DNA of 64,000 nucleotides from Roseomonas sp. HF4. Lineage in GTDB: Bacteria > Pseudomonadota > Alphaproteobacteria > Acetobacterales > Acetobacteraceae. A model generated the notes under the pieces. The model had not been told where the DNA came from, ran no database searches, and was given only the letters and a program-made list of their open reading frames with translations. The stretch spans positions 1 to 64,000 of the forward strand of contig NZ_STGD01000015.1 of assembly GCF_005222755.1 (NCBI RefSeq), given 5' to 3'. Positions 48,057-64,000 of this stretch are shown here, piece after piece; position 1 is the first letter of the stretch, and each line of letters begins with the position of its first letter. The position numbers and the translations under genes were made by a program.

Positions 48057-49451
48057 TCAGGTCGCCAGCATCGTCGGGCGGAAGCCCAGCGCCTCCTCGC
48101 CCAGCCGCGCCTGGCCAAGCAGCGCGGCATCGCCATGCGGCCGCCCGACCAGCTGCAACCCGACCGGCAGGCCTTCCTTCGTCAACCCGCACGGGATCGA
48201 GATCGCCGGGCAGCCGGTCAGCGTCACCACGAAGGTGAGGAACATCCAGTCGATATAGGTGGTGAGCGCCTCGCCCGCGATCTCGGTCGGGAAGCGCTGC
48301 TCCACCGGGAAGGGCGGCACCGCAACGGTCGGGCAGGCGAGCAGGTCGAACTCGTCGAAGAAGCGCGCGACGCGATGAAACAGCGCGGAGCGGGCGCGGC
48401 GCGCGGCGATGATCTCCTCCGCCGTAAGTGCGAAGCCCTTCTCGATGTTCCACACGATGTCGGGGTTGATGCGCTGGCGCTCGCGCGGCAGCAGGCCACC
48501 GCGCACATCGGCGAACAGCAGCGCGCGCAACACCTGGAAGGCCTCGATGGCGCCGGCGAAATCCGGCGCGGCCGCTTCCACCGCCGTGCCCATCGCCGTG
48601 AAGCGCCGCGTCGCCGCCTCGCAGATCGCGGCCACCTCGGGGTCCACCTTGCGCAGGCCGAGATCGGCGCTGAAGCCGATCCGCGCCGGCGGGCGCCCCG
48701 CCCGCATGGCCGCCTGGTAGCCGCCCGCCGGCAAGGGGCGGGAGAGCGGGTCATGCGGCGTCTGCATCGCCATCGCGTCCAGCATCAGCGCGAGGTCCGG
48801 CACGTTGCGCGCCATGGGCCCATCGACCCAGAGGCTGTCGAAGGCCGGCAGGCCATCCCCGCGCGGCACCACGCCCGCGCTCGGGCGCAGCCCGACCACG
48901 CCGCAGAAGGCGGCCGGGATGCGCAGCGACCCGCCGAGGCAGGAGCCGTTGGCCAGCCACACTTCCTGCGCCGCCAGCGCCGCCGCCGCCCCGCCGGAGG
49001 ACCCGCCCGCCGTGCGCCCCAGGTCCCACGGATTGCGCGTGACGCCCCAGACCGGGTTGAAGGTATGGCTGCCGGCGAATTCGGGCACGTTCGACTTCGC
49101 AACCGGGATCGCGCCGTTGGCGCGCAGCGTGGCGACCGTGCGGTCATCCGCCGGCGCGACATGGTCCGCGTAGATTGGCGAGCCGAAGGTGGTGAGCTGC
49201 CCGCCCACATCGTTGTAGTCCTTGATCGCGACGGGCAGGCCGGCGAGCCAGCCGGGATGGTCCCTGCCCTCGCGCGGGAAGTCCCGCGACTGCGCGCGCG
49301 CGGCGTCGAGGAAACGGATCGGCAGCGCGTTGATCCTGGGCTCCACGGCCGCGATGCGCGCGGCGGCGGATTCCACCATCTCGAGCGGCGAGACCTCCCC
49401 GCGGCGCAGCCTTGCGACGGCCTCGGTCGCGGTCAGTTCCCACAATTCCAT
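48057..49451 (-). CDS. Amidase-signature family protein
   Basis: A 464-residue amidase: LPVAIKDYNDVGG near 75-87 supplies the catalytic Lys, GRTAGGSSGGAAAAL near 152-166 the cis-Ser, and SCLGGSLRIPAAFCGVVGLR near 174-193 the nucleophile Ser. It hydrolyses an amide; whether it is a stand-alone amidase or GatA-like cannot be told, but no gatB/gatC is adjacent and the C-terminus is amidase-like. ATG 49451 has GGGAGGG upstream, so the extra N-terminal reading is not used. It is the last gene before the att-like sequence. Confidence 0.9.
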   Translation of the reverse strand: MELWELTATEAVARLRRGEVSPLEMVESAAARIAAVEPRINALPIRFLDAARAQSRDFPREGRDHPGWLAGLPVAIKDYNDVGGQLTTFGSPIYADHVAPADDRTVATLRANGAIPVAKSNVPEFAGSHTFNPVWGVTRNPWDLGRTAGGSSGGAAAALAAQEVWLANGSCLGGSLRIPAAFCGVVGLRPSAGVVPRGDGLPAFDSLWVDGPMARNVPDLALMLDAMAMQTPHDPLSRPLPAGGYQAAMRAGRPPARIGFSADLGLRKVDPEVAAICEAATRRFTAMGTAVEAAAPDFAGAIEAFQVLRALLFADVRGGLLPRERQRINPDIVWNIEKGFALTAEEIIAARRARSALFHRVARFFDEFDLLACPTVAVPPFPVEQRFPTEIAGEALTTYIDWMFLTFVVTLTGCPAISIPCGLTKEGLPVGLQLVGRPHGDAALLGQARLGEEALGFRPTMLAT

Positions 49452-49537: not shown

Positions 49538-49555
49538 TCACTCCCACTCGATGGT
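49538..49555 (-). other. Orphan guaA 3'-end signature, probable attachment site
   Basis: Read on the minus strand, ACCATCGAGTGGGAGTGA encodes TIEWE-stop, the conserved end of GMP synthase GuaA, but no guaA gene precedes it. The guaA 3' end is a known integration site for genomic islands. If this is the copied att core, the island extends to higher coordinates, with guaA beyond the window. Confidence 0.6.
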
Positions 49556-49612
49556 CAATCAGAGTCTTAGGCACAAGTTTTCATTCAGAAATTCGCCCCA
49601 TAACGCCGCCAT

Positions 49613-49633
49613 ATACCGTCATCCATACCGTCA
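49613..49633. repeat. Two short direct repeats beside the att-like site
   Basis: ATACCGTCA occurs at 49613-49621 and again at 49625-49633, a 12-base period, in an AT-richer stretch. Paired short direct repeats near an att core could be integrase arm-type sites; this is inference. Confidence 0.45.
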
Positions 49634-49705
49634 GATGATAGCCTCAGAAAGCCCGCCCGCATGGCAGCCCGAGCATCGCCGCTCACAGCCAATCAGCGCG
49701 CACTT

Positions 49706-50326
49706 CTAGTCGCGCCGCGTCAGAAGGCGGAGCTTCTCCAACGCTACACGCTCGCTTTCCTTATGGTCGATCGTCCCGGCGAACCGCCCCGACGCGTCAA
49801 GCAGGAAGATGCTGGCGGAATGGTCCATCGTGTAGCCGCCGCCGTCCACCGGTACGCGCCGGTAGTAGACGCGGAAGCTCTGGGCGACCCGCGCAATCTC
49901 GGCCTCGGTGCCCGACAGGCCGGTGATCCGACGGTCGAAGGCTTCCAGGTAGCCGGCCATCGCCTGCGGCGTATCGCGCTCGCTGTCGACGCTCACGAAC
50001 AGCCAGTGAACCCGGTCCGCCTCGGCGCCCATGGCCTCGATGAAGCCCGTCATCTCGGTGAGGGTGGTCGGACAGACATCGGGGCAGTACGTGAAGCCGA
50101 AGAACACCGCCGTCGGCCGGCCGCGGAAGTCGCGCTCCGTCACCGCGCGGCCGCGGTGGTCGGTCAGGCTGAAGGGCCCGCCGATCGCCAATGTCTGTGG
50201 CCCGGTCGCGACGCGCGGCGGCGCCAGCGGACCATCGGAGACCAGCCACCCGCCGGTGGTGGCCAGCAGCAGAAAGCCCACGACGCCAACGGCGCCCCAG
50301 GCAACCCAACGGATGATGCGGAGCAT
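49706..50326 (-). CDS. SCO1/SenC-family copper chaperone
   Basis: A 206-residue membrane-anchored thioredoxin-fold protein: N-terminal segment VAWGAVGVVGFLLLAT, then FFGFTYCPDVCPTTLTEMTG with the Cu-binding Cys81 and Cys85, and MDHSASIFLLDASG with the third ligand His. It delivers copper to cytochrome c oxidase or acts as thiol reductase. ATG 50326 fits the signal-anchor start. It lies seven bases after the PCu(A)C gene, the classic partner in CuA assembly. Confidence 0.93.
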   Translation of the reverse strand: MLRIIRWVAWGAVGVVGFLLLATTGGWLVSDGPLAPPRVATGPQTLAIGGPFSLTDHRGRAVTERDFRGRPTAVFFGFTYCPDVCPTTLTEMTGFIEAMGAEADRVHWLFVSVDSERDTPQAMAGYLEAFDRRITGLSGTEAEIARVAQSFRVYYRRVPVDGGGYTMDHSASIFLLDASGRFAGTIDHKESERVALEKLRLLTRRD

Positions 50327-50333
50327 TGTCGCC

Positions 50334-50831
50334 TCAATGGCCCTGGTGCGGCCCGGTGCCGCGCGCACCCGGCGCATCGACGGCCAATTCGACCGTGATC
50401 CGCCCGGCGCGCTCGAACACCAGCGTCACCGGCACGCGAGCGCCTTGCTGGAAGCCGCCCTGCGGCCCGATCAGCATCAGGTGCAGACCGCCGGGCGCGA
50501 GCCGGACCTCCCCGCCCGGCGGCAGCGGGATGCCGCCGGCAATCGGGCGCATGCGCATGATGCCGTCAGTGACGGACATCTCGTGCATCTCGACGCGCGC
50601 GGCGCGCGGCGTCTCGGCGGCGACCAGGCGATCCGGCGCGGCGCCGGTGTTGCGGATGACCATGTAGGCGGCGGCGGTGGGCGCCGCAGCACCGACGGCG
50701 CGCGTCCAGGGATGGTCGATGGCCAGGTCCCCGGCACGGAAATCGTGCGCGGCGACCGGGGTGCCCAGGAAGGGCAGCGGGACGAAGGCGGCGCCGGTCA
50801 TCAGGACCGCGCGCAGAAGGGTGCGACGCAT
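50334..50831 (-). CDS. Periplasmic copper chaperone PCu(A)C
   Basis: A 165-residue protein: Sec signal ending near TPVAAHD, cupredoxin-like fold. The Cu(I)-binding ligand set is present: Met82-His83-x-Met85 in EMHEMSVTDG, the later Met residues MRM, and His117-x-Met119 in GLHLMLIGP. It loads Cu into the CuA site together with SCO. ATG 50831 is the first start that gives a signal peptide. Confidence 0.92.
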   Translation of the reverse strand: MRRTLLRAVLMTGAAFVPLPFLGTPVAAHDFRAGDLAIDHPWTRAVGAAAPTAAAYMVIRNTGAAPDRLVAAETPRAARVEMHEMSVTDGIMRMRPIAGGIPLPPGGEVRLAPGGLHLMLIGPQGGFQQGARVPVTLVFERAGRITVELAVDAPGARGTGPHQGH

Positions 50832-50883
50832 GGAAGGATACTCCGACAAGGATGGAACAGCCCCGCGCCAGGCGGGGCGGGCT

Positions 50884-51276
50884 TCAGCCGAGGATCGGAG
50901 CGGCAGGCGGTGCGCGGGCCGGCGGCGGCGCCCGCGCCGGCGGCAGGGGAGATGCGCCGGCGACCGCGGCGCGGGGCGCGGCCAGCGCCGCCCAGGCCGG
51001 CATCGGCAGCACGAGTGGGGCCGGCGGCGGCGCATCCGCGGCATCGGGCAGGCGGCACAGCGGGCAATGCGTCGCGGCCGTGGCGTCCGGCGCCTGCTCG
51101 GGCGCCTCCGGTGCGGGCAGGCCGGACGGCAGGCACAGGGTCGCGCGCAGCATCGCGTCGAAAGCGGCCCGGTCCATCGCCGCGAGAGCCGGCAGCGGCG
51201 CCAGCAGCCGCGCTACCATGGCCAGAAGCAGCAGCGCGGAGATCGGCGCGCGCAGCTCGGCCCAAGCCCGCCTCAT
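50884..51276 (-). CDS. DUF2946-type protein
   Basis: A 130-residue protein with an N-terminal hydrophobic segment ([20 protein letters not shown]) and a short [11 protein letters not shown] Cys-x-x-Cys motif, then Pro/Ala-rich sequence. This matches DUF2946, found near copper genes; function is not known. It shares ATGA with the YnfA gene (51273-51276), so it is co-translated with it. Confidence 0.7.
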
Positions 51277-51599
51277 GCTGCGCGTGGCCCCCACAGGATA
51301 ATCGCCGCGCCAGCCAGGGCAACGGCACCGCCGATCAGGTCCCAGCGATCGGGCGCGAAGCCCTCGACCACCCGCAGCCATACAAGTGTCGCCGCGATGT
51401 AGACGCCGCCATAGACCGCATAGGCGCGGCCGGAGTGCTCCACCTCGACCAGGGTCAGCAACCACGCGAAGGCGATCAACGCAACGACGCCCGCGGCTGC
51501 CCACAGGGCCGAATGGCCCAGCCGCAGCCACGCCCAGAAGGCGAAGCAGCCGGCAATCTCCGCCAGCGCCGCCGCGGCGTAGATCGCGACCGTCCTCAT
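51273..51599 (-). CDS. YnfA-family (UPF0060) small membrane protein
   Basis: A 108-residue protein with four membrane segments. [20 protein letters not shown] near 12-31 and [20 protein letters not shown] near 61-80 are the family hallmarks; the C-terminal [14 protein letters not shown]-type motif is present as [20 protein letters not shown]. YnfA proteins are SMR-like; transport is suspected but not settled. Confidence 0.93.
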
Positions 51600-51661
51600 C
51601 GCCGGGCGGGCGCCTCGGCGACCTCGATGCCCGGGATGCAGGACTGCCGCGTCAGCCAGGG

Positions 51662-52093
51662 TCAGGGATTCTCCGCGCGCCCGTCGCGGCGCAGCTCGAC
51701 ATGCAGGTTCGCCCCGGTGGTGCGGCCGGTGCGCCCCACCACGCCCAAATCCTGGCCCGCCGCGACCGGACGCCCAGCCGCCACGTCGGGCGCGAAGCGT
51801 GCCAGGTGGGCGTATCGAGCGCGCGAGCCATCGGCGTGCTCGATCTCGATCATCAGGCCGTAGTCGTAGTAGCGGCCGGCGAAGACCACCACGCCGTCGC
51901 TCGGCGCCACCACGGGCGTGCCGATCGGCGCGCGGATGTCCACGCCGGGATGCGGCCTGCCGTGGCGCGAGCCGAAGCCGGAGGAGAATTCGCCTGCGAC
52001 CGGCATGGTCGCTGGACAGGGGGCTGCGAGCGCGGCGGACCCGGTGCCGAGAACGAGCGCGACACCCAGGATCAGGGAGGGGCGATGGATCAT
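51662..52093 (-). CDS. M23-like peptidase domain protein, one catalytic His missing
   Basis: A 143-residue exported protein (signal [15 protein letters not shown]) consisting only of a LytM/peptidase M23 domain. Zinc ligands His48 and Asp52 ([14 protein letters not shown]), His96 (YAHLARF) and His131 are there, but the first His of the HxH pair is Asn129 (GANLHVEL). It may be a weak enzyme or a binding protein such as a LytM activator. ATG 52093 keeps the signal peptide. It is in the run of genes after dsbA. Confidence 0.82.
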
Positions 52094-52139
52094 GGCGCGG
52101 TCCGTGCCTTGACCTGCGCCGGAAGGCAACCCCGGAGCC

Positions 52140-52808
52140 TCAGCCACGCGGCGTCGTGCCCGGCGGCAGCAGCGGGCGGACCAGCGCGGAGAAGCGCTCG
52201 AAGCTCTGCACGCCGCGATGCAACTGCCCGTTGATCACGAAGGACGGGGTCGCGTTGACGCCCGACTCGCGCTCGCCCTGGAGCCGCATCAGGATGATCG
52301 GGTCGGTGAAGCCGCGGTCGGTCATGCAGGCGTCGATCCGCGCCGCCGGGATCCCGGCGAGCGTGCCGGCGCGGCGCAGCCAGGTGCGCGCATCCGGGCT
52401 GTGCGCCCAGGCCTCCTTGTTCGCGTAGAGCGTTGAGATCAGCGCCTCGTAGCGCTCCGGTCCGCCGCAGTGGACCATCGCCGCGGCTTCGAGCGCGACG
52501 CGGTCGAGCGGGAAGTCGCGCATCACGAAGCGTACCAGGCCCGGCTCGATGAAGGTCGTGCGGATGCGCGGAAAGATCGTGGTGTGGAAGTTCGCGCAAT
52601 TGCCGCAGGTCAGGGAGTGGTACTCGATGACCGCCACCGGCGCGTCGGCGCGGCCGATGATGCGCTCGCCCGGCAGGGGGCGCGGCGTGTCGGGGCCGGG
52701 TGCCGTCGGCTCGAAGGCCTGGGGCCCGGGCGCCTGGGCGAATGCGGCCGCCGCGGGAATGGAGATTGCGACGGCGAGCGCCGCCCGGCGGGTTGTGGCG
52801 TGGGACAT
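52140..52808 (-). CDS. DsbA-like thioredoxin-fold disulfide protein
   Basis: A 222-residue exported protein with an N-terminus like a Tat or Sec signal (TTRRAALAVAISIPAAAAFA). The active site is Cys68-Gly-Asn-Cys71 (YHSLTCGNCANFH), and NATPSFVINGQ supplies the cis-Pro. It resembles the DSBA_2/thioredoxin_4 group. Its place beside CcdA suggests that the membrane protein feeds it electrons. ATG 52808 has CCGGAGGAA upstream. Confidence 0.87.
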   Translation of the reverse strand: MSHATTRRAALAVAISIPAAAAFAQAPGPQAFEPTAPGPDTPRPLPGERIIGRADAPVAVIEYHSLTCGNCANFHTTIFPRIRTTFIEPGLVRFVMRDFPLDRVALEAAAMVHCGGPERYEALISTLYANKEAWAHSPDARTWLRRAGTLAGIPAARIDACMTDRGFTDPIILMRLQGERESGVNATPSFVINGQLHRGVQSFERFSALVRPLLPPGTTPRG

Positions 52809-52837
52809 CGGTAGTTCCTCCGGTTCAGGGATGGTGG

Positions 52838-53341
52838 TCACAGGGGCTGCGCCTGTGGCGCCGGCGCGCGGAAGCTGGTGAGCACCAGCAGCGTGACGCC
52901 GCAGACGATGGCGACATCGGCCATGTTGAAGGTCGGCCAGTGCCAGCCGCCGTAATGCGCGTCGATGAAGTCAGTGACCGCGCCGATGCGCAGGCGGTCG
53001 GCGATGTTGCCGATCGCCCCGCCGATGATGAGGCCGATCGCCGTCGCCTCGGTCCGGTTGGCCGCGCGGCGCAGCCACATCAGCAGCCAGGCGACCACGG
53101 CGAGCTTGATGCCCACCAGCAGCCAGACAGCGCCGGCGGCGCTATCGGCGAACATCCCGAAGGTGACGCCGGTGTTGAAGCCAAGCCGCAGGTTCAGCAC
53201 CGGCAGCAGCGTGATGCCCTCGCTGTAGGGCGGCCAGAGCGCCTCCAGCGCCCAGGCCTTGGTCGCCTGGTCGATGACCGCTGCGATCGGCGCCGCGATC
53301 AGGCCGAAGCGCCGCAGCGCGCGCGGGGCGGGCGTGGTCAT
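52838..53341 (-). CDS. lspA: Lipoprotein signal peptidase II
   Basis: A 167-residue aspartyl protease with four membrane segments. GGAIGNIADRLRIGAVTDFI near 108-127 and FNMADVAIV near 138 provide the catalytic Asp124 and Asp142. It cleaves lipoprotein signals after diacylglyceryl transfer. It follows ccdA with ATGA overlap (53338-53341). This copy is next to lnt, ccdA and metal genes in the island-like region, so a second housekeeping lspA may exist elsewhere. Confidence 0.93.
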   Translation of the reverse strand: MTTPAPRALRRFGLIAAPIAAVIDQATKAWALEALWPPYSEGITLLPVLNLRLGFNTGVTFGMFADSAAGAVWLLVGIKLAVVAWLLMWLRRAANRTEATAIGLIIGGAIGNIADRLRIGAVTDFIDAHYGGWHWPTFNMADVAIVCGVTLLVLTSFRAPAPQAQPL

Positions 53342-54060
53342 CCCAGCCGTGCCAGCCATGGAAATGCCTCCAGGATCCAGATGGCGAGACGGGTCATCTC
53401 GCCGGTTGCGATGGCCAGGCCCGCCGCCACCATGATGGCGCCGCTCGCGACCTGCAGGATGCGCCCCAGCCGCCCGAGCCGCCGCGCACGGGCCATCGCT
53501 GCCGGCAGGTAGAAGGCCGCGAGCAGGAACGGCACGCCGAGGCCGAGCGCATAGGCGGCGAGCAGCCCCACCCCCGCGCCGGGTGTGAGCGCCGCCGCCG
53601 TCAGCACGCCGGCCAGCACCGGCCCGATGCACGGCGTCCAGCCGAAGCCGAAGGCGACGCCGATCAGCGTGGCGGAGACCGGGCCGCCGCCCTCGCCCGG
53701 CGGCTTGAAGCGCAGGTCGCGCATCAGCGGCGCCACGCGCAGCAGGCCCATCTGCACGAGGCCCATCGCCGCGATCAGCAGACCGGCAACGACGGTGAGC
53801 TCGTTGGACCAGCGCCGCAGCAGCCCGCCGATGGCGGTCGCCCCCAGGCCCAGCAGCACGAAGACCAGCCCGAAGCCGAGCACGAAGAAGGCCGACAGGC
53901 GCAGCGCCCGCCAGCGTTCCGCGCGCGCGGTCGCAAGATCCGTCCCCGCCACCCAGGCGACATAGCCCGGCACCAGCGGCAGCACGCAGGGCGACAGGAA
54001 GGACACCAGCCCCCCGCCGAAGGCCAGCACCAGGCCGAACAGGGTGAGGTCGATCGTCAT
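53338..54060 (-). CDS. ccdA: CcdA/DsbD-type transmembrane electron carrier
   Basis: A 240-residue protein with six membrane segments. LVSFLSPCVLPLVPGYVAWV (Cys25) and FGFGWTPCIGPVLAGVL (second Cys) are the redox pair on opposite faces of the bundle. It moves reducing equivalents from cytoplasmic thioredoxin to periplasmic thiol proteins, for cytochrome c maturation or for the DsbA-like protein two genes on. Overlaps lnt and lspA by ATGA at both ends. Confidence 0.92.
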   Translation of the reverse strand: MTIDLTLFGLVLAFGGGLVSFLSPCVLPLVPGYVAWVAGTDLATARAERWRALRLSAFFVLGFGLVFVLLGLGATAIGGLLRRWSNELTVVAGLLIAAMGLVQMGLLRVAPLMRDLRFKPPGEGGGPVSATLIGVAFGFGWTPCIGPVLAGVLTAAALTPGAGVGLLAAYALGLGVPFLLAAFYLPAAMARARRLGRLGRILQVASGAIMVAAGLAIATGEMTRLAIWILEAFPWLARLG

Positions 54061-55559
54061 GCGCGCCGCCCTGCGGCCAGCGCGAGCCCCGCCAGCGCCG
54101 CGACGCCGATCGCGAAAGGCAGGTCGCCGAAGCGCGCATAAAGCGTGCCGCCGGCCAGCGCCGCCGGCAGCGGCAGGTTCAGCACGCCCTCGGTCGCGAG
54201 CGGCAGCCGCGCGCGCTCGCGCCCCATCGCGTCGGTCACCAGGGAGATGCCGCTGTTCGCCACGCGCACCAGCGGCAGGCCGAGCTCGATGGCGCGCAGC
54301 CGGGCGGCAAGGGCATGCTGGTATGGGCCCCAGGAGGTGCCGAACCAGGCATCATTGGTCACCGTCAGGATCCAGGCCGGCGCCGGGCCTTGCGCCGGCA
54401 GCGTGGTGGGGAAGATCGCCTCGTAGCAGATCAGCGGCCAGAACGGCGGGAGCCCGGCGACGCGCATCGCCCGGCGCGGCGGGCCGGGGATGAAGTCCAC
54501 CGTCCCGGCGGTGAGTTTCGGCAGGTCCGTGAGCAGCCTGCGGAGCGGCTGGTATTCGCCGAAGGGCACCAGCTGGATTTTGTCGTAGGCGGCGGTGATC
54601 TCGCCGGTGTCGTCGAGCGCGACCAGGCTGTTGAGCAGCGCCAGGCCGCCATCGTCCGCGATGGTCCGCCTTACCGCGCCGGTCAGCAGCGCGCCGCCCG
54701 GCGGAATGATGCGCGCGACCGCCGCGCGGATCGCCGGCGCCTCGGCGAGGAGATAGGGCACGGCGCTTTCCGGCCAGACGATATGCGTCGGCGCTTGGCC
54801 ATCCGCCGCCGGCGCCGTGCTCAGCGCCAGCAGCTGGCCGAGGATGCGCTCGCGCTCGCCCTCGGCCCATTTCAGGTTCTGGGGGATGTTCGGCTGCACC
54901 AGGCGCAGCCGGATGCTCGGGGCGTCGCCGGGCATCGCATCGGCAAGGCGCGCCGTGCCCCAGGCCCCGGGCAGGGCGATGATGACCACCGCGACCGCCG
55001 CGGGCCAGACGCGCCGCTGCCGCACCGCCACCGCCGCCAGCACCGACGCGAGCACAGCGAGCAGCCCGAGGCCATGGATGCCGACCAGCGCCGCCGCCTG
55101 CAGCCCGGCATCGCTGCCGCCCCAGGAATGGCCGGCGATGTTCCACGGAAAGCCGGTCAAAACCATGCCGCGCAGCCATTCGCCCGCGACCCAGCACGCG
55201 GCCAGCGCCAGGGCGAGCGGCACGCCGCACGCGCGGCCCGCCAGCAGCCGCGCGGCTGCGACCGAGACTGCGGGGAACAGCGCAAGCCCGGCGCTGAGCG
55301 CGGCCAGCGCCGGCAGCGCCAGCGCACCGAAGCGTGCCGCATCCACGCTGAAGGCCTCGGTGATCCAGGACAGGCCGACCAGGAACGATCCCAAGCCGAA
55401 CAGCCAGCCGAGCACGAAGGCGCCGCGCAAGGACGCCGTCCGCTCAAGCACGAACCACAGGCCGCCGAAGGCCACCACGCCAGCGGGCGCGATGTGCAGT
55501 GGCGCCAGCGCAATGGCGCTGAGCGCTCCGAGCCCGAGCGCGGTGGCGCCATAGGCCAT
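54057..55559 (-). CDS. lnt: Apolipoprotein N-acyltransferase
   Basis: A 500-residue protein: six to seven N-terminal membrane segments, then a nitrilase domain with HIVWPESAVPYLLAE (Glu), YDKIQLVPFGEYQPLRRLL (Lys) and FWPLICYEAIFP (Cys nucleophile), and a last membrane segment. It puts the third acyl chain on lipoproteins. The start is uncertain: ATG 55559 is used; ATG 55703, which overlaps the previous stop (TGATG), would add 48 residues. Confidence 0.9.
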   Translation of the reverse strand: MAYGATALGLGALSAIALAPLHIAPAGVVAFGGLWFVLERTASLRGAFVLGWLFGLGSFLVGLSWITEAFSVDAARFGALALPALAALSAGLALFPAVSVAAARLLAGRACGVPLALALAACWVAGEWLRGMVLTGFPWNIAGHSWGGSDAGLQAAALVGIHGLGLLAVLASVLAAVAVRQRRVWPAAVAVVIIALPGAWGTARLADAMPGDAPSIRLRLVQPNIPQNLKWAEGERERILGQLLALSTAPAADGQAPTHIVWPESAVPYLLAEAPAIRAAVARIIPPGGALLTGAVRRTIADDGGLALLNSLVALDDTGEITAAYDKIQLVPFGEYQPLRRLLTDLPKLTAGTVDFIPGPPRRAMRVAGLPPFWPLICYEAIFPTTLPAQGPAPAWILTVTNDAWFGTSWGPYQHALAARLRAIELGLPLVRVANSGISLVTDAMGRERARLPLATEGVLNLPLPAALAGGTLYARFGDLPFAIGVAALAGLALAAGRRA

Positions 55560-55702
55560 GCGGTGCGTCACGTGGTGGATTGGTCCGCGCGCCACTTGCG
55601 GCCGCGTCACGCACGCGCCGTCGTGGCGGGTCCACGGCAGCAAGAAGCCCTTCATGGCGCGGTGCAGCTCAGCGCGGTCGCTCGCAGCCGGGCGTCCCAT
55701 CA

Positions 55703-56170
55703 TCAGTGCCAATGCGCCCGAAGCGACACGACCACTGCGCCTGCGCGTTCGAAGCGCAGCGTGACGCGGATCTCGTCGCCGAGCGCGAGCGGTACCTGCA
55801 GGTCGCGCAGCAGAAGGTGCCGTCCGCCGGGCTCCAGGGCGACGACGTCACCGGCTGGGATGACGAAGCCCTCGGTCACGGCCCGCGCACCGCCGGAGGC
55901 GGACGGGTCTGGTTCTCGCAGTTCCACGGCGGCCGCGCCGGACGACGTGGCGGAGAGCAGCCTCTCCGCCTCACTGCCCCGGTTGCGGATCGTCACGAAG
56001 CCGAAGGACAGGCGCTGGTCGTTGTCGGCGGCCTTCGCCCAGGCTCCGGTCAGGAGCAGGCAGCCCGCCTGAACATCCTGGGCCGCGGCCGGGCCCGACA
56101 GGATCAGGCGCCACGCGAGGAGGACAGCGGGCATCAACCAGCGCCGCCCGAGGATGTTGCCGGGCATCAT
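55703..56170 (-). CDS. PCu(A)C-family protein lacking the usual copper ligands
   Basis: A 155-residue exported protein (hydrophobic segment then GPAAAQD) with the PCu(A)C fold (LSFGFVTIRNRGSEAERLLS near 54-73, ALEPGGRHLLLRDLQVPLAL). At the site where the copper protein at 50334 has MHEM it reads VELREPDP, and HLM becomes His118-Leu-Leu120. So the Met/His Cu(I) site is lost except for one His. It may bind another metal or have a structural role beside the P-type ATPase. Confidence 0.82.
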   Translation of the reverse strand: MMPGNILGRRWLMPAVLLAWRLILSGPAAAQDVQAGCLLLTGAWAKAADNDQRLSFGFVTIRNRGSEAERLLSATSSGAAAVELREPDPSASGGARAVTEGFVIPAGDVVALEPGGRHLLLRDLQVPLALGDEIRVTLRFERAGAVVVSLRAHWH

Positions 56171-56222
56171 GCGGTCGCCTTTGTAATGTTCCGTGTCACC
56201 CAGGGACCCACCACGAAGGACA

Positions 56223-58517
<2,295 letters not shown>

Positions 58518-58544
58518 GGCACCCGTTCCAACGTCGCGGGCATC

Positions 58545-58575
58545 GGTATGGCACTTCCAGTGACTGGAGGTTCAA
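58545..58575 (-). promoter_or_regulatory. MerR-family type promoter of the ATPase gene
   Basis: On the minus strand, a -35 TTGAAC (58570-58575) is followed by exactly 19 bases and then CATACC (58545-58550). The spacer holds the dyad ACCTCCAG / CTGGAAGT. An overlong 19-base spacer with a dyad in it is the hallmark of MerR, ZntR, CadR and CueR targets. The gene start is 28 bases further on. No MerR-type gene is in the window. Confidence 0.8.
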
Positions 58576-58719
58576 GGGGCTTTTTTCGGCCTCATGTCAT
58601 CACTGGCCACCCTCAGCGGGAGCGCGGTCGGGACGTTGCGCGCTCGGTCCACGCCGCTTGCGCATTGACCGCGATGTTTGGGATAGATCGCTCCCCCCCC
58701 CCGGGCCAGGAGCCTTGCC

Positions 58720-59736
58720 GTGCGGTCGTTCAATTCACGAGATCTGCGCATCGGTCGCCGTCTCGTCGTGCGCGCCGCGCTGGCTGCGCCGTTCATCGCT
58801 GCCGGACGCGACGCCGGTGCCCAGCCGGTGGCCGAGGCGCCCGCGCCGCCCGCCGGCTCGCTGTTCGTGCTCAATTCGCTCGATGCCAATGTGCAGGTGC
58901 TGGACCCTGCCAGCAGCAATGACCTGCGCCGCGTACCGGTGCTCCGCGAACCGCACCACCTGGTCCTGACGCCGGCGCGGGACCTGATCCTGGTCGGCGA
59001 TTCCGGCGCCAACGAGATGTTCCTGCTCGATCCGCGCAGCGGCGAGGTGCGGCGGCGGGAGCCGATCAGCAACCCCTACAATCTCGGCTTCACGCCGGAT
59101 GGCAAACGCCTAGTCGTGACCAGCCTGCGGCGCAACCAGGTGGACATCTACCGCTGGGACGGTGCCGCCCTGGCCTTCGAGGGCCGGCTGCAGGCCGGGC
59201 GCAAGCCGAGCCACGTCACCTTCTCGCCGGATTCGCGCTACGCCTTCGTGACGTTGCAGGGCGAGGCCGCCGCCATCGCGATCGACCTCGACACCTGCAC
59301 CGAGGCCTGGCGCGCCGAGGTCGGGCGCGACCCGGCCGGCATCCTGTGGCATCGGGGCCGCATCCTGGTGGGCGTTATGGGCAGCGACTACGTCTCCGTC
59401 ATCGACCCGGCGACGCGCCGCGCCGACCGGCGCATCACGGTCGGGCGCGGTGCGCACGCGCTGTTCGAAGGGCCGCAGGATGGCTTGGTCTACGTCACCT
59501 CGCGCGTCGACAGCCGGATCACCGCGCTCGACCCGCAGACGCTGGAGATCAAGCGCGTCCACGAGATCGGCGGCGGGCCGGACTGCCTGACCTTCGACGC
59601 GGACGGCACGATCTGGGCGACGCTGCGCTGGACCGGGCGCGTCGCCGCCATTGATCCGCGCAGTGGCCTGACGCGGGTGTCGCGCGTCGGGCGGTCGCCG
59701 CACGGCATCGTGTTCGCGCCGGCGACTGGCGCCTGA
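58720..59736 (+). CDS. YVTN/YncE-type beta-propeller protein
   Basis: A 338-residue protein with a Tat-type N-terminus (DLRIGRRLVVRAALAAPFIA) and repeated propeller blades: LFVLNSLDANVQVLDPAS, LVVTSLRRNQVDIYRWDG, SDYVSVIDPATRRADRRITV, LVYVTSRVDSRITALDPQTL. Such proteins sit in the periplasm; ligand or partner unknown. GTG 58720 has AGGAG eight bases ahead. A run of ten C (58693-58702) lies just upstream. Confidence 0.83.
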   Translation: MRSFNSRDLRIGRRLVVRAALAAPFIAAGRDAGAQPVAEAPAPPAGSLFVLNSLDANVQVLDPASSNDLRRVPVLREPHHLVLTPARDLILVGDSGANEMFLLDPRSGEVRRREPISNPYNLGFTPDGKRLVVTSLRRNQVDIYRWDGAALAFEGRLQAGRKPSHVTFSPDSRYAFVTLQGEAAAIAIDLDTCTEAWRAEVGRDPAGILWHRGRILVGVMGSDYVSVIDPATRRADRRITVGRGAHALFEGPQDGLVYVTSRVDSRITALDPQTLEIKRVHEIGGGPDCLTFDADGTIWATLRWTGRVAAIDPRSGLTRVSRVGRSPHGIVFAPATGA

Positions 59737-59788
59737 CGGCCGCGCCGGCACGGCGCCGAAGGGCGAGCCGGACCCTGGTCCGGTCGCC

Positions 59789-60253
59789 TCAGGCGGGTTG
59801 CGACCCGTTGAACCGCATGAAGGACCGGTGTGGACCGCTACCGAAGGCGATCACGTCGTAGCTGTCGACCGGCGCGCCGGGCACTTCCATGCCGGGCGAG
59901 CCGACCGGCATCTCCGGCACGGCGAGGCCGCGGACGCCGGCAGGGCGTTCGGCCAGCAGGCGGCGGATGGCGATGGCGGGCACGTGGCCTTCGAGCACGA
60001 AGCCCTCGACCTCGCCGGCATGGCAGGACAGCAGGTCTGCCGGTGTCCCGAGGCGACGCCGAACCGGCGCGACCGAGGGCACCACCTGGTCCACCACGGT
60101 GAAGCCCTCGGCGCGCAGATGCGCGACCCAGCCGGTGCAGCAGCCGCAGTTCGGGTCACGCCAGACGCTGACGCGCGTGGGTGCGGCGGCGTGCGTGGCT
60201 CTGGCGGTGGCGAGAAGCGCCACGGATCCCAGCAGCAAGCGGCGTTTCTGCAT
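59789..60253 (-). CDS. DUF411 metal-binding protein
   Basis: A 154-residue exported protein: signal LLLGSVALLATARATHA, then DPNCGCCTGWVAHLRAEGF with Cys36, Cys38 and Cys39, LSCHAGEVEGFVLEGHVPAI and VPEMPVGSPGMEVPG. This is the complete DUF411 pattern, associated with copper resistance. The Cys, His and Met sites would bind Cu(I). ATG 60253 starts the signal; the extension to 60334 is unsupported. Confidence 0.9.
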   Translation of the reverse strand: MQKRRLLLGSVALLATARATHAAAPTRVSVWRDPNCGCCTGWVAHLRAEGFTVVDQVVPSVAPVRRRLGTPADLLSCHAGEVEGFVLEGHVPAIAIRRLLAERPAGVRGLAVPEMPVGSPGMEVPGAPVDSYDVIAFGSGPHRSFMRFNGSQPA

Positions 60254-60380
60254 GTGACGGTTCCTCTCCCTCTTGCCGCAGCAGTCAGATAGCACTCCGC
60301 CTTCGAAGTAAATGGGCGTAGTGCCCCAGATCACCAGACGCGCCGCCGCGCCGATCGTGCGCAGCGGCGCCGCTCGGGCG

Positions 60381-61028
60381 TCAGGGTCGGATGATGCGCG
60401 CGTAGTCGCCGCTGGTCCGCAGCGTTACGGTCAGATCGCGGTCGGAGCGGTTGCGCCAGAACCAGCCATGGGTGCCGTCGAAGCGGGCGATGAGTTCGCC
60501 CTGCTCCCCGGAGGAGCCGCGGCCGTTCCGATAGCTGTATGTCGAGTTTCGCCCGGCGTTGGGCGGCTCGCCATGCATGTCGTAATTGACCGGGCCGGTG
60601 GCGGTCCAATTGAAGTTGACCCGCGCACCACTGCGCATGTCGAGCTTTACCTCGATGCCCTGGTTCGGCCGGAGCGTGATGATGGTCTCGTCGGTTCGCG
60701 CGGCGACGGCCGGCAGCGCCGTCTGAGCGGCGGCCGGGCGGATGAACAGCCCTGCGAAGATCGCGCCAGGCAGGCTCGAACGCGGGCCTGGCGTTGCGGC
60801 CGGTGGCGCCCGATCGGCTGCAGCCTCGGCCGCCAACTGCATCTTCAACTCGCCCATCTCGGTCAGGCCGAGGGGACGGCCAACGCCGGTCGGGTCGATG
60901 CCGTACTCAGCGGGCAGGACCACGGTGATGAGGATGGCCACGGCGGCCGCGGCTGCGATAGCGGTGGAGCGAAGCAGCTGCTTTGAGGAAGGCAGTTCCG
61001 CGCGGGTCGGCAGGTCGGTGTTGTACAT
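60381..61028 (-). CDS. Transmembrane anchor protein (unknown function)
   Basis: A 215-residue protein: short cytoplasmic N-terminus (MYNTDLPTRAELPSSKQLL), one membrane segment (TAIAAAAAVAILITVVLPAE) and a periplasmic domain (NQGIEVKLDMRSGARVNFNW, DGTHGWFWRNRSDRDLTVTL). The N-terminal sequence is like that of proteins called transmembrane anchor protein found next to HupE/UreJ genes. It starts 12 bases after the HupE-like stop, so they are likely a pair. Confidence 0.72.
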   Translation of the reverse strand: MYNTDLPTRAELPSSKQLLRSTAIAAAAAVAILITVVLPAEYGIDPTGVGRPLGLTEMGELKMQLAAEAAADRAPPAATPGPRSSLPGAIFAGLFIRPAAAQTALPAVAARTDETIITLRPNQGIEVKLDMRSGARVNFNWTATGPVNYDMHGEPPNAGRNSTYSYRNGRGSSGEQGELIARFDGTHGWFWRNRSDRDLTVTLRTSGDYARIIRP

Positions 61029-61040
61029 GTCAGGGATCCC

Positions 61041-61763
61041 TCAAGAGACGAACCAGCCGGTGAGCTGATAGCCGATCAGCACAAACCCGGCGGTCATCAT
61101 GACGACGTTGGCGGTGTAGGCATGGCGCAGGAAACTCGGGCTGCGGCGCCAGAAGCCCATGGCGATAAGGATGACGGCGAGCGCCAGCAACTGCCCGACC
61201 TCGACGCCGACGTTGAATGCCAGCAGGTTCGGCAGCAGGCCATCGGGCGAGACGTTGTAGTCGAGGATCTTCGAGGACAGGCCGAAGCCGTGGCAGAAGC
61301 CGAAGACCAGCGTCGCCACCTTGGTGTTCGGCTGGTAGCCGAGCCAGCGCTGGAAGGCGCCGAGATTGTCGAGCGCCTTGTAGACGATCGAGAAGCCGAT
61401 GATGGCATCGATGATGTAGCTGTTGATACCGATGCCAAAATACACGCCGGCCAGCATGGTCGTGGAGTGGCCTAGCGCGAAAAGGCTCACATAGATCGCG
61501 ATGTGCTGCAGCCGGTACAGGAAGAAAATCACGCCGAACAGGAACAGGATGTGGTCGTAGCCGGTGACCATGTGCTTGGCGCCGAGATAGACGAAGGGCA
61601 GCAGCTGGATGCCCGATATTTCCTGGATGTAGCCCTTGTCGCCCTCGGCGACGGCATGGGCGAGCGCCTCGGTGGTGGCGCCCAGCAGGGTCAGGCCGAG
61701 GACGCACAGGCATAGCCATGGAATTCGCGACAGGCGCACGTCGCCCGCGATGATGGGATTCAT
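61041..61763 (-). CDS. HupE/UreJ-family membrane protein
   Basis: A 240-residue protein with seven or so membrane segments. The hallmarks are AKHMVTGYDHILFLFGVIFF near 61-80 (H and D ligands), FALGHSTTMLAGVYFG near 95-110 and FGFCHGFGLSSKIL near 155-168. HupE/UreJ proteins are presumed Ni or Co permeases; in metal islands the substrate may differ. Probably cotranscribed with the anchor protein gene. Confidence 0.85.
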   Translation of the reverse strand: MNPIIAGDVRLSRIPWLCLCVLGLTLLGATTEALAHAVAEGDKGYIQEISGIQLLPFVYLGAKHMVTGYDHILFLFGVIFFLYRLQHIAIYVSLFALGHSTTMLAGVYFGIGINSYIIDAIIGFSIVYKALDNLGAFQRWLGYQPNTKVATLVFGFCHGFGLSSKILDYNVSPDGLLPNLLAFNVGVEVGQLLALAVILIAMGFWRRSPSFLRHAYTANVVMMTAGFVLIGYQLTGWFVS

Positions 61764-61822
61764 GAGTGAGACCGCTCAGGTGAGAAAGGAAGGAACTGTC
61801 CGAAGACGGCGGCATGGGCAGC

Positions 61823-62137
61823 TCAGCCGAGCCCGCGGGGCGGCCGTTCCATCCTGCTGTTTGGCCCCGGCGCGAGGCCCTCCTGCCCCAGGATTGCGAG
61901 CCCGGCACGCGGCATCCATCGCGGCGCCAAGGAGGCCGGACGCACGGTTACCGCCTCATGCACATGGTCTGTGATCGCATGATCGACGGCATCGTGGGGT
62001 CCGCGCAGGTCCTGATCGTCCGTGGCGTGGATATGGTCGGCAGCACCGTGCATCGACACCGCGGCGAGGGGCGGCGCGAAGGTAACCACCAGCAGTGCCA
62101 CGAGCAGCAGCCTGACGATGTGTCGAAACCCCCTCAT
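61823..62137 (-). CDS. His-rich small exported protein
   Basis: About 104 residues: signal or anchor (IVRLLLVALLVVTFAPPLAA) then a His/Asp-rich stretch (MHGAADHIHATDDQ, GPHDAVDHAITDHVHEAVTV) and a Pro/Arg tail. No family recognised. The His spacing suggests periplasmic metal buffering, in line with the neighbours. Start at 62137 is preferred to 62155 because the signal peptide begins near there. Confidence 0.5.
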   Translation of the reverse strand: MRGFRHIVRLLLVALLVVTFAPPLAAVSMHGAADHIHATDDQDLRGPHDAVDHAITDHVHEAVTVRPASLAPRWMPRAGLAILGQEGLAPGPNSRMERPPRGLG

Positions 62138-62181
62138 GCCGCGCTGCTGCTCCAATCCGCCATCCCATGGTGACTAGCAGA

Positions 62182-62209
62182 TTGACGGTATCCATACCAG
62201 GGGGATAGG
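62182..62209 (+). promoter_or_regulatory. Promoter and G-tract operator before the CsoR/RcnR-type gene
   Basis: TTGACG (62182-62187) and GATAGG (62204-62209) are 16 bases apart and could be -35 and -10. A G5 tract with AT-rich flanks (ATACCAGGGGGATAGG, 62194-62209) overlaps the -10. CsoR/RcnR/FrmR repressors bind G/C-tract sites flanked by AT, so autorepression is likely. Transcription would start near the ATG at 62218. Confidence 0.5.
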
Positions 62210-62217
62210 ACAGGCCC

Positions 62218-62496
62218 ATGAGCGAACAGCATGTCCACGGATCCCACCCCGAGATCGCCAAACGGCTGAAGCGGGCCGAGGGTCATCTGCGCAGCGTGGT
62301 TGAGATGATCAACGCGGGGCGACCTTGCCTCGACATCGCTCAGCAACTGCATGCGGTTGAACGCGCGGTCAGCGAGGCCAAGCGCAGCTTGATCCGCGAC
62401 CACCTTGACCACTGCCTGGATCACGCCGCGGAGGAGACCGGCGCCGAGCGGCGCGCCGCAATGGAGGCGTTCAAGCAGATCACGAAATACCTGTGA
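62218..62496 (+). CDS. CsoR/RcnR-family metal-sensing repressor
   Basis: A 92-residue all-helical DUF156 protein. Ligand positions are Cys37, His62 and Cys66 (INAGRPCLDIAQQL, DHLDHCLDH), the Cys-His-Cys set of copper-sensing CsoR, whereas RcnR has a third His. It also has three N-terminal His (5, 7, 10), more like RcnR. It should release its operator on metal binding and derepress the MFS exporter that follows 25 bases later. Confidence 0.9.
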   Translation: MSEQHVHGSHPEIAKRLKRAEGHLRSVVEMINAGRPCLDIAQQLHAVERAVSEAKRSLIRDHLDHCLDHAAEETGAERRAAMEAFKQITKYL

Positions 62497-62521
62497 TGCT
62501 CTTCCTATCAGGAGCGGCGAA

Positions 62522-63847
62522 ATGCTGAGTCCGCTGGCCGACCGCACCTATCGCCACCTGTTCGGCGCGCAGATCCTGTCGCTGATCGGCACCGGCCTCA
62601 TGACCGTGGCACTCGGCCTGCTCGCCTTCGACCTCGCCGGCGCCAATGCCGGCGCGGTCCTGGGCACGGCACTGGCGATCAAGATGGTGGCCTATGTCGG
62701 CATCGCGCCAGTCGCCGGCGCCTTCGTGCACCTGGTGCCGCGGCGCGCGCTGCTGGTGGCGCTCGACCTGCTGCGCGCCGCCGTCGCGCTGGCGCTGCCC
62801 TTCGTCACCGAGATCTGGCAGGTCTATCTGCTGATCGGCCTGCTGCAGGCCTGCTCGGCCGCCTTCACGCCGACCTTCCAGGCCACCATCCCTGACGTGC
62901 TGCCGGATGAGGCGCAATACACCCGCGCTCTGTCGCTCTCTCGCCTCGCCTACGACGTGGAGGCACTGACCAGCCCGATGCTGGCCGCGGCCCTGCTTTC
63001 CGTCATCGGCTTCCACTGGCTGTTCGCGGGCACGACGCTCGGCTTCATCGCCTCGGCGGCGCTGGTGGTCTCGGTGCTGCTCCCCTCGCCCAAGCCGCCT
63101 TCGACGCAGGAGAGCGCCTGGGGGCGCACGACGCGCGGCGCACGGCTCTATCTCGCCGCGCCGCGGCTGCGCGGGCTGCTGGCGCTGAACCTGGCGGTCG
63201 CCGCGGCCGGGGCGATGGTCATCGTCAACACGGTGGTACTGATACAGGCGGGGCTCGGGCTGGGTGCAGGGCAATTGGCATGGACGCTGGCGGCCTATGG
63301 CTTCGGCTCGATGGTCGCCGCACTCGCGTTGCCGCGTGTGCTGGATCGCGTCGGCGACCGCCCGGTGATGCTGGCGGGCGCCGTGATCCTGGTGGCAGGC
63401 CTGCTCGCGGGGCCGCTGACGCTGCAACACTGGGGGCTCGTGCTGGCGCTCTGGGCGCTGCTTGGCCTCGGCAATGGGCTGGTGCTGACGCCCTCGGGGC
63501 GACTGCTACGGCGGTCTTCTGACGCGGGCGACCGTCCCGCGCTGTTCGCGGCGCAATTCGCGCTCAGCCACGCCTGCTGGCTGCTCGCCTATCCGCTGGC
63601 GGGGTGGCTGGGGGCAGCGGCGGGGCTGGCGCCGACCTTCCTGCTATTGGCGGCGCTGGCGGCTACCGGCACATGGCTCGCCATCCGGCTGTGGCCGGCG
63701 GAGGCCGAGCGCGCCGCGCCGCACGACCACCACGGCCTGCCGGCGGACCACCCGCATTTGAACGGCGCGCAGCCCCTGCCGGACGGCGGCTTTCGCCACG
63801 TCCATGCCCCGGTCGCCGATACACTGCACGCGATGCGCGGCGGCTGA
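62522..63847 (+). CDS. MFS transporter with His-rich tail, probable metal exporter
   Basis: A 441-residue protein with twelve membrane segments (first: LFGAQILSLIGTGLMTVALG). The C-terminal tail is rich in His (HDHHGLPADHPHLNGAQ, FRHVHAPVADTLH). This layout is like the nickel exporter NreB. With the metal repressor just upstream, a role in metal efflux is likely; which metal is open. ATG 62522 has AGGAG ahead; the longer frame to 62405 shadows the repressor gene. Confidence 0.83.
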   Translation: MLSPLADRTYRHLFGAQILSLIGTGLMTVALGLLAFDLAGANAGAVLGTALAIKMVAYVGIAPVAGAFVHLVPRRALLVALDLLRAAVALALPFVTEIWQVYLLIGLLQACSAAFTPTFQATIPDVLPDEAQYTRALSLSRLAYDVEALTSPMLAAALLSVIGFHWLFAGTTLGFIASAALVVSVLLPSPKPPSTQESAWGRTTRGARLYLAAPRLRGLLALNLAVAAAGAMVIVNTVVLIQAGLGLGAGQLAWTLAAYGFGSMVAALALPRVLDRVGDRPVMLAGAVILVAGLLAGPLTLQHWGLVLALWALLGLGNGLVLTPSGRLLRRSSDAGDRPALFAAQFALSHACWLLAYPLAGWLGAAAGLAPTFLLLAALAATGTWLAIRLWPAEAERAAPHDHHGLPADHPHLNGAQPLPDGGFRHVHAPVADTLHAMRGG

Positions 63848-63863
63848 AGCGCCCATCATCGCC

Positions 63864-64000
63864 GTGCCCGACCTTGCCGCCTATGCGGGCCTGTTCGCCA
63901 TCGCCTTCGCCGCCGCGACACTGATCCCGGCGCAGTCCGAGATCGCGCTGGCCAGCCTGCTTGTCGCCGGGCAGCAGCCCGTGGTCCTGCTGCTGGCGGT
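63864..64000 (+). CDS. YqaA-family membrane protein, N-terminal part (cut by window end)
   Basis: GTG 63864 opens a frame (PDLAAYAGLFAIAFAAATLI then PAQSEIALASLLVAGQ) that runs off the end. It resembles the first membrane segments of YqaA proteins of the DedA/SNARE-associated superfamily. It starts 16 bases after the MFS stop and may be part of the same operon. Confidence 0.6.
   Translation, partial: MPDLAAYAGLFAIAFAAATLIPAQSEIALASLLVAGQQPVVLLLA

Follow-up and report, generated by a model that had tools for sequence, protein, structure and literature searches.

The 64,000-nucleotide stretch of Roseomonas sp. HF4 DNA analyzed here (the window) very probably contains the attR end of a monopartite integrative and conjugative element (ICE) of about 90.9 kb that is inserted at guaA. 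We give this reading a probability of roughly 95%. The initial annotation had proposed that an orphan guaA 3' end in the window marks the boundary of a genomic island. An element does lie at guaA, and with its size of about 91 kb and its conjugative nature it goes beyond the island that was proposed. Five leftover codons of a gene had correctly predicted this element, although its two ends are on different contigs.

The orphan guaA end

The sequence TCACTCCCACTCGATGGT at 49538–49555 reads TIEWE-stop on the minus strand and has no guaA gene upstream, as had been claimed. It is the single match in the window at ≤3 mismatches, where shuffled sequences gave an expectation of 0.06, and the single match in the genome at ≤1 mismatch. 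To its right are two ATACCGTCA direct repeats on the plus strand (49613–49621 and 49625–49633), whose starts are spaced by the 12 bases reported initially. The paired motif is likewise found once in the window at ≤3 mismatches (0.02 expected from shuffles). The description of the adjoining DNA as AT-richer also holds, with 54.7% G+C at 49556–49705 vs 73.9% immediately to the left.

The 168 bp end was used to search 35 genomes of the genus. Besides this genome it was found in G010, G011 and G018 at 94–98% identity, with the orphan guaA end at the same position in their elements. Random matching of TIEWE-stop and the repeats, for which only the shortness of the sequences speaks, was ruled out by the shuffles together with the recurrence of this end in three congeners, and its probability is negligible. 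We therefore assign 49538–49555 to the attR core and 49556–49705 to the element-side attR arm, with the repeats at 49613–49633 as probable arm-type integrase binding sites. The chromosomal neighbor directly outside the element is an amidase gene (48057–49451, minus strand). The left 14.5 kb of the element occupies 49542–64000.

Intact guaA and the attL end

The genome has one copy of guaA, on the minus strand at the extreme start of a 619 kb contig (C1:2082–3662), which places it at the far end of the element as predicted. The window's own contig is C15. The intact guaA end, TCATTCCCACTCGATCGT (C1:2082–2099), is identical to the orphan at 16/18 positions, and the second 18-base core that was sought thus exists as a near-copy rather than an exact one. 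The two ends share an identical 11 bp stretch, ATCGAGTGGGA, which lies at 49542–49552 within the attR core. A tyrosine recombinase was expected near guaA, and a 426 aa tyrosine integrase (C1:484–1764; PF00589, the arm-binding PF13356, PF22022) is encoded directly downstream. All of the catalytic residues checked (5/5) are present: R238, H335, R338, H361 and Y371. An AlpA-like gene (C1:210–518) is convergent with the integrase gene. Four ATACCGTCA-like repeats lie beside guaA on C1 at 1811, 1826, 1945 and, as a variant, 1957.

Apparently guaA and the window are on separate contigs because an IS66 copy splits the assembly. C15 ends with 111 bases, and C1 starts with 119 bases, that exactly match the two ends of a collapsed contig, C40, which encodes an IS66 transposase (PF03050). 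Joining C15, C40 and C1 yields an IS66 copy of 3,099 bp between ardC and the AlpA-like gene, with AGCGGATC as an 8 bp target duplication at both flanks. The place of insertion is uninterrupted in G010 and G018. For this strain we infer the join from the overlaps, the target duplication and the relatives. The element then runs rightward past 64 kb, as had been predicted, from the window to C15:135478, through C40 and into C1:1–2099. It measures 90,903 bp core to core with both cores counted, or 87.9 kb without the IS.

Closed elements and an empty site in relatives

Closed elements are found between guaA and an orphan stub in G010, a complete one-contig chromosome (93.4 kb), and on one contig of G018 (92.2 kb). 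Without its IS, the element aligns with that of G010 over 67.4 kb at 92.2% DNA identity and with that of G018 over 63.8 kb at 91.5%. The flanking guaA/RsmB DNA is 84.4–85.3% identical to these genomes. Identity within the element is thus above that of the flanking DNA, which fits horizontal movement and suggests that it was recent.

An empty site, which the initial annotation had suggested looking for in a relative, was found in G020. There the amidase orthologue (89% aa identity) comes immediately after guaA, and from 15 bp past the guaA stop onward a stretch of 1,470 bp has 84.8% DNA identity to the amidase side of the window. The guaA end of G020 is ACGATCGAGTGGGAGTGA, the hybrid expected for a crossover within ATCGAGTGGGA. 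This agreement is consistent with such a crossover but is weak support, because many congeners have that ending.

Two differences among the elements were also observed. In G018 an insert of about 2 kb with two ORFs interrupts the integrase of the related element (contig C7, about 113.9–115.8 kb), which may prevent this copy of the element from leaving its site. The interval between trbB and the TraG gene (C15:99750–108400) is a hotspot whose gene content differs in all three elements compared.

Comparison with known elements at guaA

That the guaA 3' end is a known insertion site agrees with the literature, in which islands and ICEs at this site are already established: GIsul2, ICE6775, the Mesorhizobium ICEs and a Brucella island. 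GIsul2 has a tyrosine integrase at the guaA 3' end, a GAGTGGGA core and alpA (PMC9376610). The Brucella suis IncP island also has a tyrosine integrase there (PMC5704250). These two are reported as integrative and mobilizable, short of full ICEs (PMC9376610, PMC5704250), and the present element resembles them, by description, in its tyrosine integrase at the guaA 3' end. ICE6775 is a conjugative mercury-resistance ICE of Pseudomonas with a GAGTGGGAGTGA duplication at the guaA 3' end (PMC7419628). By description it shares insertion site, metal-resistance cargo and conjugative nature with the present element and is set apart by its gammaproteobacterial host and by carrying mercury rather than copper cargo.

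In Mesorhizobium, tripartite-ICE integrases have been linked to guaA, and guaA ICEs are described (PMC8627217). The tripartite ICE of M. ciceri WSM1271, ICEMcSym1271, has intG with a convergent rdfG (PMC5882170) and is described as being under quorum-sensing control (PMC8627217, PMC5882170). Our element resembles its IntG module in the guaA target, the P4-type integrase (76% aa identity to that at the WSM1271 guaA locus), the convergent AlpA/RdfG-like gene (67%) and the TGACGGTAT/ATACCGTCA repeats in the spacer between guaA and the integrase gene. This likeness, together with the fact that the integrase gene and guaA are not on the window's own contig, would suit one arm of a Mesorhizobium-like tripartite ICE with regions at several chromosomal sites. 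We rejected that structure, and consider it very improbable, since in G010 and G018 the element is single and uninterrupted with guaA cores on both sides, and since the contig break in this genome is the IS66 copy. Instead of three integrases, three att pairs and three chromosomal regions, we found one contiguous element with one guaA-linked integrase. It further differs from ICEMcSym1271 in carrying copper/metal cargo instead of symbiosis genes, an IncP-type Trb set and an RlxS-like relaxase. A literature search for a Roseomonas copper ICE gave nothing specific, and no description of this element turned up in the papers covered.

The integrase family and its repeats

We compared 80 named relatives of the integrase (73–98% aa identity). 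In 75/80 of their loci guaA lies alongside the integrase gene, and in these 75 the guaA end pattern begins 304–334 bp upstream of int. Among the other five loci, three start within 330 bp of int and two have other neighbors. The integrases of Mesorhizobium muleiense and Phyllobacterium phragmitis, which are without guaA upstream, are possibly rearranged or at another site. A convergent AlpA-like gene is present in 71/80, and the family includes the guaA locus of the tripartite-ICE strain M. ciceri WSM1271.

In 77 guaA–int spacers there are 204 copies of the ATACCGTCA-type motif (8.0 per kb), as against 16 in 822 kb elsewhere in those loci (0.019 per kb). This 412-fold enrichment is not to be read as a probability because the spacers are related by descent. 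The reversed motif has 0 occurrences. Such conservation supports the predicted binding-site role, and the ATACCGTCA repeats are probably arm sites of the integrase. As a direct repeat at the crossover they were rejected: they lie 58–70 bp from the core at attR, while at attL they are 116–262 bp away from the stop codon of guaA, and they recur at similar distances across the integrase family. A literature search for arm sites with this motif gave nothing specific. The integrase set defines a guaA-tied alphaproteobacterial family with conserved repeat motifs, which supplies a search rule for draft genomes: an orphan TIEWE-stop plus ATACCGTCA pairs.

Conjugation genes and mobility

On C15, TrbI, G, F, L, E and B are encoded at 90.8–99.6 kb, a TraG coupling protein at 108.5–110.6 kb and an RlxS-like relaxase at 110.6–112.3 kb. 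TrbB, E and L exceed their family cut-offs, as does TraG (PRK13876), and VirB8, CagX and TrbI Pfam matches were also obtained. Family searches gave no individual confirmation of TrbC, D or J. The relaxase match has an expectation value of 8e-162 and a score of 540, below the NCBIfam RlxS cut-off of 850. RepA, DUF2840, ParB and ArdC proteins are encoded as well. With TraG (PRK13876), the TrbB, E, L and I families, RepA and ParB, the element resembles IncP/Tn4371-like Trb systems, from which it differs by the guaA target and the P4-type integrase.

At the level of sequence, the element qualifies as an ICE. An integrase with intact catalytic residues is encoded at one end, directly downstream of guaA as in its relatives, matching att cores lie at both ends with an empty site in a relative, and a relaxase, a coupling protein and a mating-pair apparatus are all encoded. 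The element is probably self-transmissible. The P4/IntG-type integrase would insert it into the last guaA codons by a crossover within ATCGAGTGGGA. Since the element brings its own copy of these codons, guaA would remain intact at attL, while the displaced chromosomal stub would stay at attR next to the amidase gene. The arm-binding domain of the integrase probably binds the ATACCGTCA repeats found at each end, and a probable excision factor is the AlpA-like protein encoded convergently with the integrase. After excision the circle would be transferred by the relaxase, TraG and the IncP-type Trb system, spreading the copper/heavy-metal cargo.

We considered whether decay has cost the element its ability to excise or to be transferred. 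The IS66 copy between ardC and the AlpA-like gene and the interruption of the related integrase in G018 lend this some weight. On the other side, the integrase, AlpA-like protein, TraG, relaxase and TrbB, E, L and I are encoded by uninterrupted frames of plausible full length, the catalytic residues are intact, and an identity above that of the host flank suggests recent movement. Decay is unlikely, though appreciably more probable than a tripartite structure.

Metal cargo

The genes right of the stub form the predicted metal cargo. On the minus strand they begin with the copper chaperones SCO1/SenC (49706–50323; PF02630) and PCu(A)C (50334–50834; PF04314). These are followed by a YnfA-type membrane protein (51273–51599; PF02694), an M23 peptidase (51662–52099; PF01551), a DsbA-like thioredoxin (52140–52808; PF13462), an lspA-like signal peptidase II (about 52838–53350; assigned from sequence and the annotation of plasmid homologues), a CcdA-like protein (53338–54060; PF02683), apolipoprotein N-acyltransferase (lnt/cutE; 54057–55655; PF20154, PF00795) and a heavy-metal P-type ATPase with an HMA domain (56223–58517; PF00122, PF00403). 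A YncE-like beta-propeller protein (58720–59736, plus strand; PF21783) precedes a DUF411 protein (59789–60253; PF04214) and a HupE/UreJ-like protein (61041–61763; PF13795), both on the minus strand. A metal-sensitive transcriptional repressor (62218–62496; PF02583) and an MFS transporter (62540–63847; PF07690) are on the plus strand. Over the whole element, the set comprises SCO1, two PCu(A)C (the second identified by reading the sequence alone), DsbA-like, lspA-like, CcdA-like, Lnt and a multicopper oxidase. Transporters and regulators include three P-type ATPases, Nramp, an RND pump, a two-component system and a MerR regulator.

Most of the metal genes fall in stretches common to the closed elements of G010 and G018, within the att-to-att interval, and are thus cargo, as the initial annotation had supposed. 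The stretch at 60.2–64.3 kb of the window is common to G010 and absent from G018. The G+C content of the cargo resembles that of the chromosome, so composition alone is no mark of foreign origin. This likeness would suit metal genes native to the chromosome, with the guaA stub left behind by some unrelated island or rearrangement. However, both G010 and G018 have these genes, in this order, inside the att-to-att interval, and G020 has nothing between guaA and the amidase gene, which makes a native origin highly improbable. As cargo, the genes point to recent movement of a copper/metal package between Roseomonas-like species.

Wholesale borrowing of the copper cluster from known plasmids was rejected: no plasmid record covers 80% of the left 14.5 kb of the element, and the best plasmid matches listed cover ≤15% of it. 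Genes for lspA, CcdA and the P-type ATPase also occur on Roseomonas mucosa plasmids at about 78–80% DNA identity. Extra copies of lspA and lnt (cutE) travel with the copper genes on the element (52838–55655). Conceivably, though we hold this as a doubtful idea, a Roseomonas-type ICE lineage has taken genes for copper homeostasis and lipoprotein maturation (SCO1, PCu(A)C, DsbA, CcdA, lspA, lnt, P-type ATPases, RND pump and multicopper oxidase) as one package into its near-constant backbone, with the extra lnt and lspA copies contributing to metal resistance.

Two further regions of C15 were observed. Right of RepA, the element-specific stretch 117228–122243 encodes an HTH regulator, an M78 peptidase with capP-like similarity and a protein with 5-hmdU DNA kinase helical and MazG_C domains; it is possibly a defense or DNA-modification block inside the ICE. 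The stretch 126116–129415, absent from the G010 and G018 elements, encodes a PD-Lambda-5_A-similar protein, an ORF of unknown function and an N6/N4 DNA methylase, and is a candidate defense module.
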